DNA from: Tissierellia bacterium
GTDB taxonomy: Bacteria; Bacillota; Clostridia; Peptostreptococcales; Acidaminobacteraceae
Assembly (NCBI GenBank): GCA_012520095.1
Contig: JAAYOV010000098.1
Span: 1-32,823 of the forward strand
Length of the DNA: 32,823 bases
Reading direction: 5' to 3'
Shown: positions 20,185 through 25,257 of the stretch, piece after piece
How positions within the stretch are numbered: position 1 is the stretch's first letter
Layout: every line of letters begins with the position of its first letter
Translations under genes and position numbers: made by a program
The notes under the pieces: generated by a model
Told to the model about the DNA's origin: nothing
Seen by the model: the letters and a program-made list of their open reading frames with translations, nothing else
Databases searched by the model: none

Positions 20185-21033
20185 ATGTTTAACAATTATA
20201 AGCGCATTGCATTCATACTATTGGGGCTTCTTATCATGACTGCAGGACTGGGAGTTTTTATCATCCCTTCAAAACTTGCCTCTGGAGGATTGACGGGGTT
20301 TTCATTGGTTCTTAACCATCTGTTTCCGTCGCTGTCAGTGGGAAGCATCATGCTCATCGGCAATATTTTCCTCTTTATTCTGGGGTTTCTTTTGATCGGA
20401 AAGCAGTTTGGCGGGTACACCATCTTCTCTTCACTGACATTGTCTGCTTTTCTCGATATTTTTGCCAGGATATTTCCCATGCAAAGTGCGCCCACAGATG
20501 ATCTTTTTATCAATCTTTTCTTTGGGACGCTCATCAGCTCGGTCGGTATGGCGATCGTCTTTCACCAAGATGCTTCCACCGGAGGAACGGACATCCTCGC
20601 AAAAATCGTCACAAAATATACGACACTGGACATCGGAAAAGCTCTCATGGTGATCGATGTATTCGTCGTGATCATGGCATCCATGGTCTTCGGCGTGCGT
20701 TTGGGACTGTATGCTCTTCTCGGCGTTCTGATGAACGGCTTCATCATTGACAATCTCATCATGGGCTTTAAGAGACGATTCCTTGTTGTCATCATGAGTG
20801 AGAAAAATGATGAGATCTATCAATTTGTCGACGAAACCCTTGAGCGAGGGGCTACGCTCTATCATGCTGAAGGCGCATATGAGCGCCAAGATAAATATGT
20901 ACTTCATACCATTTTAAATAAAAGTCAGTATATTCAACTCAAACAGCACGTCCATCGAATCGATCCGGATGCTCTGTTGAGTGTCACAACGGTTCAGGAA
21001 GTCTTCGGCGAGGGCTTCGCTGAGTTACGTTGA
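20185..21033 (+). CDS. YitT-family membrane protein
   Basis: A 282-residue protein with about five membrane helices in the first 190 residues and a cytoplasmic C-terminal domain (about 200-282) of the DUF2179 type. The motifs GLGVFIIPSKLASGGLTGFS and FHQDASTGGTDILAKI are characteristic of the YitT family, often found in multiple copies in Bacillota. Physiological function is not established; relatives have been proposed as transporters. AGGAG precedes the ATG with 6 bases. The HAD gene follows after 27 bases and may be cotranscribed. Confidence 0.88.
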   Translation: MFNNYKRIAFILLGLLIMTAGLGVFIIPSKLASGGLTGFSLVLNHLFPSLSVGSIMLIGNIFLFILGFLLIGKQFGGYTIFSSLTLSAFLDIFARIFPMQSAPTDDLFINLFFGTLISSVGMAIVFHQDASTGGTDILAKIVTKYTTLDIGKALMVIDVFVVIMASMVFGVRLGLYALLGVLMNGFIIDNLIMGFKRRFLVVIMSEKNDEIYQFVDETLERGATLYHAEGAYERQDKYVLHTILNKSQYIQLKQHVHRIDPDALLSVTTVQEVFGEGFAELR

Positions 21034-21060
21034 TATTGCCGGCGAAGGAGGAATGATTTA

Positions 21061-21888
21061 TTGAATTATCGAATAATAGCGATTGATTTAGACTTTACAC
21101 TTCTCAATGATCAGCATCGAATTCATGAGAAAAATCAAGAAGCGCTGAAAGAACTGGCAAAGATAGCCACTGTCGTCTTTGCGTCGGGAAGGCCTATTTC
21201 CGCCATGCTCCCGTTTCTGCAAATATTTCCGAAGGGAACGATCAAATATCTCATAGGCAGCAATGGGGCTCATTCAATCGATGAAGAAGGCAATATTTTT
21301 TATGAAGCATATATTGATGGCGAGATCCTGCTACCGGTTTACAAAGAGGCGGAAAATAGAGACGTGAGCTTTCATTTCTTTCATGAAGGAGCGATTTATT
21401 CAAACACGGACAGCATCATTGTAAGAAAAGATGCGGAATTCATGGAAATGCCGTTAAAAATTGTTGATAACATGGACGAAATGCTCACCGGCATGCATCT
21501 GCATAAGTTCCACTCCATGGGTGATCCTCTCAAGCTTCGGGGCTTTTATGAATGGCTCCGGGCACAGAAGCTTCCTCTGCACCCAATTCTCTCCAAACCA
21601 TACATTATGGAGGTGCCGCCGATAGGAGTGGACAAGGGCGAGGCTCTTAAAAGTCTTGCCGCCTACTTGGGGGTTCGAAGGCGGGAGATCTTAGCCGTGG
21701 GTGACAGCTTTAATGATGCAGGAATGCTTCGCTATGCAGGGACGGGGCTTGCCATGGATAATGCTCCTAAAGGCGTCAAGAACATCGCTGATCGCACCTT
21801 ATATGTCAATCATGAGCAAAATCTGGCGGAGATACTGTTGGAGATCGTTTTAGAACCGAAAAAACTGTATTCTCTCAGTTACAAATAG
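21061..21888 (+). CDS. Cof-type HAD-superfamily phosphatase
   Basis: A 275-residue HAD hydrolase of the Cof (C2 cap) class, which dephosphorylates sugar phosphates, flavin or other small phosphates. Motif I is IAIDLDFTLLND with Asp9 and Asp11; Phe replaces the usual Gly after the second Asp. FASGRP is motif II, Lys in GVDKGEALKSL is motif III and GDSFNDAGML is motif IV. The start is TTG 21061 with GAAGGAGG upstream; no ATG fits. The next gene begins 26 bases later. The substrate cannot be deduced. Confidence 0.9.
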   Translation: MNYRIIAIDLDFTLLNDQHRIHEKNQEALKELAKIATVVFASGRPISAMLPFLQIFPKGTIKYLIGSNGAHSIDEEGNIFYEAYIDGEILLPVYKEAENRDVSFHFFHEGAIYSNTDSIIVRKDAEFMEMPLKIVDNMDEMLTGMHLHKFHSMGDPLKLRGFYEWLRAQKLPLHPILSKPYIMEVPPIGVDKGEALKSLAAYLGVRRREILAVGDSFNDAGMLRYAGTGLAMDNAPKGVKNIADRTLYVNHEQNLAEILLEIVLEPKKLYSLSYK

Positions 21889-23563: not shown

Positions 23564-23688
23564 GTCTGTCGAGGCCATTTGCCGAGTGCTGCGGCCGGTT
23601 GCTTTCGAGAGTTTGAACTTGAAGGCTTCACAAAAAGAAACTGGAGCGCTCAAGTGAATAATGGGTATCTCTCTATTGAGGTGTGAAA

Positions 23689-25257
23689 ATGAACAAAACA
23701 GATCTACATATTCATTCCGTGTATTCTGACGGCTCGCAGAGCATTGATGAGATTTTTTGTGAGGCTAAGAAAGAAGGAATGACTCGAATTGCGATCACTG
23801 ATCACGATGCGCTTCCTCCGTGGGAGGAAGTAAGAGAAGCAAGAGATCGCTATAGAATCGATACATTGACAGGAGTAGAGCTCAGTTGCCGGGATCCTCT
23901 GACTGGAAGAAGCGTCCATCTTTTAGGGTATGGATTTTCTCCTGCTGCTCCACATATCAGGAAGTTTTGTGAGGATATGACGCTGAGGCGTCGCAGACAA
24001 AACAGCCGTCAGCTTTCCATCTTGAAGGAAATGGGTTATCGCTTTGAGTGCTCGAAACTCTTGGAGTATATGACACCCGGAGGTGTTCTCCAAAAACAAC
24101 ACATCTTACTGATGCTGATGGATGCAGGTTATACCGAGCATATGTTTTCATCGCTGTTTTTTGAGCTGTTCGGACGCCGGGGCGTGCTTCTGGAAGAAGA
24201 TGACTCGCCTCACTTTGAAGAAGGGATGTATGCGATACTTGCCGACGGAGGTCAAGTGGCGCTTGCTCATCCGGCGCTCGGAGAATTATGGGATTTAGTA
24301 CCTGTTTTGAAGGAATTGGGGCTTGCCGCCATTGAGATGGATCATCCCGTCCACTCTGCACAGGATCGGCTAAGAGCGGCTGAGCTTGCGCAAAAGTACG
24401 ATCTCGAACTTGCAGGAGGCTCCGATACCCATGGCAACTACAGCTATATTCAGCGTCGCATAGGGGAGTGTCTCTCTCATTGGCTGACTCACGACAATTT
24501 ATCTGAAAGAATGCACTTTGTCAGAGGGCTTCTGGAAGAGGCTTCGAAAGAGGCGCTCATGCGTGGCAGCCGTCCGATGAGGAGCTGGGACAAGGGAAAA
24601 CAGGACTGGGTTAGCGAAGTGGACCTGTATATTCAAGAAAAGATTGTCCAGGCGATTAGAAGCCGGTATCCTTCTGAGACAATTATCAGCGAAGAACTGC
24701 CGAATGGGAGCCTGTCAAAGGGATTTAATTGGATTCTCGACCCCATTGACGGGACCAGGAATCTCTTATATGAAAGAGAAAATTACTTCATCTCTCTGGC
24801 TCTCTACAATGGGAATATACCGGTGCTTGCCGGTCTTAGCGATCCCAAGCGATCCGAGATCTTCTTAGGAGAAAGAGGAAAGGGAGTAACCAAAAATGAC
24901 ATGCCGCTTCCGGCTCTGAAGCCCGTTGCCATGCATCAAGCGATATTCGAAAACGGGACAAAGGCAAATCACTTGGGCAAACTTCTCTCAGAGGTGCAGG
25001 CTGTCCGATACAGTGGGTCGATTGTCAAGAGCTTAAGCATGCTTCTCACCGGAAAACGGCATCTCATGGTCAGTGACAAGGTGCGCATCTGGGACTATGC
25101 GGGCGGTGTTTTCCTGCTGGAAGAGCTTGGCGGAGCGGCCAAGATCTATCCGGGAAAAGGCCGTGGCGGCGCAGATGTGCTAATTGCAGCGGTCAGCCGG
25201 GACCTACTGGAAGATGCGCTTAAAGCAATCAAAGAAGATGGATGGGATGAGCGGTGA
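23689..25257 (+). CDS. PHP phosphoesterase fused to an inositol-monophosphatase-like phosphatase
   Basis: A 522-residue two-domain enzyme. The N-terminal PHP domain (1-about 270) keeps the metal ligands His7, His9, Asp14, His39 (TDHD), Glu64 (GVELS), His194 (LAHP), Asp246 and His248 (GSDTHG), like the TrpH/RNase AM group. The C-terminal domain (about 285-515) is an IMPase/CysQ-type phosphatase with SEE (Glu335-Glu336), DPIDGTRN (Asp351, Asp354) and IWDYAGG (Asp469). Both active sites look intact. Members of both families are known to attack 3',5'-bisphosphonucleotides such as pAp, so one shared substrate is a plausible inference. I chose ATG 23689 with GAGGTG five bases upstream; GTG 23683 is the alternative. 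The frame is continuous over the junction. Confidence 0.87.
   Translation: MNKTDLHIHSVYSDGSQSIDEIFCEAKKEGMTRIAITDHDALPPWEEVREARDRYRIDTLTGVELSCRDPLTGRSVHLLGYGFSPAAPHIRKFCEDMTLRRRRQNSRQLSILKEMGYRFECSKLLEYMTPGGVLQKQHILLMLMDAGYTEHMFSSLFFELFGRRGVLLEEDDSPHFEEGMYAILADGGQVALAHPALGELWDLVPVLKELGLAAIEMDHPVHSAQDRLRAAELAQKYDLELAGGSDTHGNYSYIQRRIGECLSHWLTHDNLSERMHFVRGLLEEASKEALMRGSRPMRSWDKGKQDWVSEVDLYIQEKIVQAIRSRYPSETIISEELPNGSLSKGFNWILDPIDGTRNLLYERENYFISLALYNGNIPVLAGLSDPKRSEIFLGERGKGVTKNDMPLPALKPVAMHQAIFENGTKANHLGKLLSEVQAVRYSGSIVKSLSMLLTGKRHLMVSDKVRIWDYAGGVFLLEELGGAAKIYPGKGRGGADVLIAAVSRDLLEDALKAIKEDGWDER

Follow-up and report, generated by a model that had tools for sequence, protein, structure and literature searches.

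A single gene of the window, by which we mean the whole stretch of 32,823 nucleotides analyzed here, joins a PHP domain to an IMPase domain in one polypeptide, and the fusion is real, with two intact metal sites. We judge the chances to be about even that its product is a bifunctional phosphohydrolase, whose PHP half would open a ribosyl-type 1,2-cyclic phosphate and whose IMPase half would remove the remaining phosphomonoester. The fusion is a new variant on known enzyme families, and a search of the open-access literature found no paper describing a PHP-IMPase fusion or an IMPase in phn operons, in line with the initial annotation, which knew of no characterized protein of this architecture.

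The gene (23689-25257, forward strand) translates without interruption to 522 amino acids plus a stop codon, which bears out the continuous PHP-IMPase frame read in the initial annotation, and neither a stop nor a frameshift was found near residues 275-290. Its start was placed at the ATG at 23689 rather than at the upstream in-frame GTG at 23683, the mechanical ORF start, because a Shine-Dalgarno-like motif, GAGGTG, can be read from the sequence at 23678-23683 of the same strand, 5 nt before that ATG. The PHP domain, of PhnPP type according to its PF02811 and NF041661 matches, the residue check and the tree, occupies residues 1-265 (23689-24483, forward strand), while the IMPase domain, recognized by PF00459, the residue check and a confidently modelled structure, occupies residues 275-515 (24511-25233, forward strand). 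The same fusion is conserved over its full length, with 71-72% identity, in both other genomes of the genus (G001 and G002), and among these genes dN was about 0.2 in each half with synonymous change saturated, a pattern of purifying selection indicating that the fusion is neither an assembly error nor a decaying gene. In the structure model the IMPase half was confident, with blocks from residue 271 mostly above 80 pLDDT, and the PHP half was poor, probably because few PHP sequences entered the model's alignment. A single-protein scan of the genome contigs returned no relatives, nor did a scan of viral contigs with the PHP alignment.

The PHP half matched PF02811 at residues 5-103 (2.6e-12; 47.8 bits vs. 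a gathering cut-off of 26.4), and the nine metal ligands described for PHP phosphoesterases (PMC11656708) are complete (H7, H9, D14, H39, E64, H138, H194, D246, and H248). All twelve PHP and IMPase residues named in the initial annotation are present; the ninth PHP ligand, His138, which it had missed, lies within a KQH motif (residues 136-138; 24094-24102, forward strand) and completes the set. Among the NCBIfam models the best match was PhnPP (NF041661, 161 bits, 3.4e-47), ahead of all other PHP models by at least 69 bits, including the nucleoside bisphosphate phosphatase model NF041577 (91.9 bits) and the RNase AM (RNase RNM) model NF047791 (77.7 bits, vs. a cut-off of 375). The PhnPP equivalog cut-off of 500 bits was missed; the phn-linked PHPs of Bacillota also stay below it, with 171-316 bits, and no PHP examined reaches it. 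PhnPP itself, or Elen0235, is the phosphoribosyl 1,2-cyclic phosphate 1,2-diphosphodiesterase of Eggerthella lenta, a PHP-family enzyme that the window protein resembles in its best family match and its nine-ligand metal set, and from which it differs in its sub-threshold score, in the fused IMPase and in its position outside a phn operon in the window genus.

Residue counts were more telling than the tree for placing the window PHP. KQH, D69, C94, and Y251 occur in all three members of the genus, and these residues are common in phn-linked PHPs and rare in generic ones. Column counts gave K at position 136 in 28 of 29 phn-linked PHPs, vs. R in 31 of 38 generic PHPs, and Q at position 137 in 26 of 29, vs. 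P in 32 of 38, so that KQH in the PhnPP branch faces RPH in most generic proteins; D69 was present in 28/29 phn-linked PHPs, with mostly Y and other residues in the generic set, and Y251 in 29/29. The window protein carries the phn-type residue at each of these four positions. In a quick tree of 98 rows the window PHP fell within a branch of 57 rows that holds the phn-linked PHPs (SH-aLRT 94), on the opposite side from 38 generic PHPs including E. coli RNase AM, although a union of the window PHP with the generic PHPs was not rejected (p-AU 0.236). RNase AM (Rnm/TrpH/YciV) and the nucleoside 3',5'-bisphosphate phosphatases share with it the PHP family and the metal site, while most proteins on their side of the tree carry RPH and lack D69.

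The IMPase half matched PF00459 (Inositol_P) at residues 291-512 (6.9e-30; 104.9 bits vs. a cut-off of 27) and retains all the catalytic residues (D312, E335, E336, D351, D354, T356, and D469), as do SuhB, the Bacillaceae IMPases and CysQ; unlike these, it stands on a long, separate branch and is fused to a PHP domain. The likeness to CysQ on which the initial annotation drew was not supported: in a quick tree this half branched apart from both CysQ and SuhB of E. coli, and the CysQ model TIGR01331 gave 39.3 bits, short of its cut-off of 228.8. G001 and G002 moreover possess a second gene, separate from the fusion, on the CysQ branch, while in the window genome (G000) the fusion was the only IMPase-family gene found. 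The nearest clade unites phn-linked IMPases with those of Bacillaceae (support 84), and the phn IMPases form one clade (95*) in the quick tree. Joining the window half with them cost nothing (p-AU 0.50), a result that permits a common origin of the sequences without demonstrating one. Since the branches of both halves are long (1.4 changes per column for PHP, 2.0 for IMPase), their specificity may have shifted.

In relatives among the other Bacillota, the same two families meet within phn operons, which serve the C-P lyase pathway for extracting phosphorus from phosphonates. G087 encodes a fusion of 537 amino acids, 33% identical to that of the window and flanked by phnL and phnDCEE; its complete phn operon also holds phnHIJKM. 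G595, likewise in a complete phn operon, encodes one of 546 amino acids between phnL and phnD. A third fusion, shortened in its IMPase half, lies next to phnG, phnH, and genes for the phn transporter in G125 (L061, G125:C29); PhnJ was not found in that genome and PhnI is a 54-residue remnant, so this operon looks degenerate. Separate adjacent PHP and IMPase genes were present in the phn operons of G040, G522, G993, G1107, and Desulfosporosinus sp. SRJS8; both genes flank phnL in the operon of G426 and lie about 0.5 kb apart in G767, whereas in G796, G848, and G871 the operon contains an IMPase and no PHP was seen in the locus. PhnJ was detected in 20 of the 398 genomes of an even phylum sample, and in 7 of these 20 an IMPase gene lay less than 11 kb from it, vs. 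an expectation of 0.10 computed from the 15 IMPase genes that these genomes contain; this excess should be read as indicative and not as a probability, because the genomes are related and the G1138 locus is nearly the same as that of G040. Across 28 phn loci, no open frame matched either PhnN or PhnP of E. coli at E < 1e-5. By this pattern, an IMPase-family enzyme would be an unrecognized end-step partner in those Bacillota C-P lyase operons where no PhnP or PhnN homolog was found, and the fate of 5-phosphoribosyl cyclic phosphate in these bacteria becomes open to direct testing.

Some loci showed further particularities. G1107 appeared at first to encode a fusion, a candidate set aside when the PHP gene was seen to end directly before the in-frame IMPase ATG (L119:8633-10339), a single stop codon away from a fused frame. 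In G796 (L124:8161-9698) the IMPase adjoins a protein of the MBL fold that is best matched, below cut-off, by the NCBIfam model of a cyclic nucleotide-degrading phosphodiesterase. The phn loci of G1138 (L121, G1138:C7) and G040 (L069, G040:C48) are nearly identical and encode the same PHP and IMPase proteins, while the genomes are assigned to different families, which either recent transfer or misbinning of a contig would explain.

The PHP halves spoke against one fusion event, which was rejected whether all fusions (p-AU 0.002), the three phn-linked fusions (p-AU 0.000136) or the window genus together with the fusion of G087 (p-AU 0.003) were constrained to one clade. That the PHP halves do not form a clade suggests repeated fusion; either the two domains were joined several times or genes once fused came apart again. 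The IMPase partner has apparently been joined to the cyclic-phosphate hydrolase more than once.

In E. coli the cyclic-phosphate step of the C-P lyase pathway is performed by PhnP, followed by PhnN (PMC10574752). The PHP-IMPase pair of the relatives sits where these end steps would be needed, PHP and IMPase being different families from PhnP and PhnN, and most likely ends the pathway in their place, which would yield ribose 5-phosphate and Pi from 5-phosphoribosyl 1,2-cyclic phosphate. Within a fused protein, the N-terminal PhnPP-type half would convert a ribosyl-type 1,2-cyclic phosphate to the monoester, and the C-terminal IMPase half would release the sugar (phosphate) and Pi from the latter; here we infer the order of the reactions, the substrate and the action of both halves on one molecule. 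A further proposal of the initial annotation, the hydrolysis of both phosphates of one compound, came close to this scheme. Elen0235 is reported to cleave the diester of a cyclic phosphate and also the monoester that arises from it (PMC11656708); this favors the cyclic-phosphate chemistry proposed for the PHP half, but cleavage of the monoester without an IMPase partner counts against the bifunctional reading.

In the window genus the chemistry is better founded than the choice of substrate. Neither PhnJ nor PhnI was found in G000 and G002 (drafts rated 97% and 92% complete), two of the three genomes of the genus, and the phn operon of G001 has a solo PHP separate from the fusion, so that the fusion need not serve C-P lyase. 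The neighborhoods of the window fusion and of its counterparts in the sister genomes contain no phn genes, and the neighbors change from genome to genome, leaving no conserved context. This position outside phn operons, together with the lack of a detectable C-P lyase in two of the three genomes, suggests that the enzyme probably applies this chemistry to a cyclic phosphate of some other origin, and raises the question of which cyclic phosphate it serves.

One alternative, which we consider unlikely, is that the enzyme of the window genus acts on a cyclic phosphate of a different kind, for example myo-inositol 1,2-cyclic phosphate or a 2',3'-cyclic nucleotide, and that the IMPase half then hydrolyses the monoester. 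The genomes in which C-P lyase was not found and the strong divergence of the IMPase half would suit it, as would a PhnPP-like PHP that in Lysinibacillus irui lies outside phn genes, beside a HAD hydrolase. ADP-ribose 1'',2''-cyclic phosphate was considered as well and dropped, because KptA, its source, was looked for in the genus and not found, which weakens the case for a different cyclic phosphate.

It seems quite unlikely that the fusion merely secures the co-expression of two independent, broad-specificity phosphatases with no substrate in common. Their unconserved gene context would fit, and as the sole IMPase-family gene found in G000 the fusion may serve as a general IMPase; against this stands the repeated pairing of PHP with IMPase in phn operons, and the rejection of the phn-linked PHP halves as a clade suggests that this very pairing was fused more than once. 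We consider it less probable again that the window-genus fusion is a C-P-lyase-independent repair enzyme, returning 5-phosphoribosyl 1,2-cyclic phosphate, for instance from PRPP breakdown, to ribose 5-phosphate and Pi. PRPP can break down to this cyclic phosphate.

The least probable reading is one proposed in the initial annotation, the degradation of short RNA or pAp by an RNase AM/TrpH-like PHP and a CysQ-like IMPase: such enzymes occur in both superfamilies and the window protein does match NF041577, NF047791 and CysQ, but the lead of PhnPP over these PHP models, the KQH, D69, and Y251 residues in place of the generic ones, the grouping with phn-linked PHPs (with the p-AU of the generic union as given above) and the position of the IMPase half off the CysQ branch, next to the separate CysQ-like genes of the sister genomes, all speak against it.

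Upstream of the window fusion, on the same strand, lie genes for a YitT-like membrane protein and a Cof-type HAD hydrolase (20185-21888), the same two families as those around the Lysinibacillus irui PHP. The pair was not seen in the neighborhoods of G001 and G002, and the likeness is therefore perhaps due to chance. On the Lysinibacillus irui plasmid (L255:7195-9475) no phn genes are annotated in the stretch around the PhnPP-like PHP, which is part of a HAD-PHP-YitT run following an iron-type ABC transporter and is 51% identical to the PHP of the G087 fusion.
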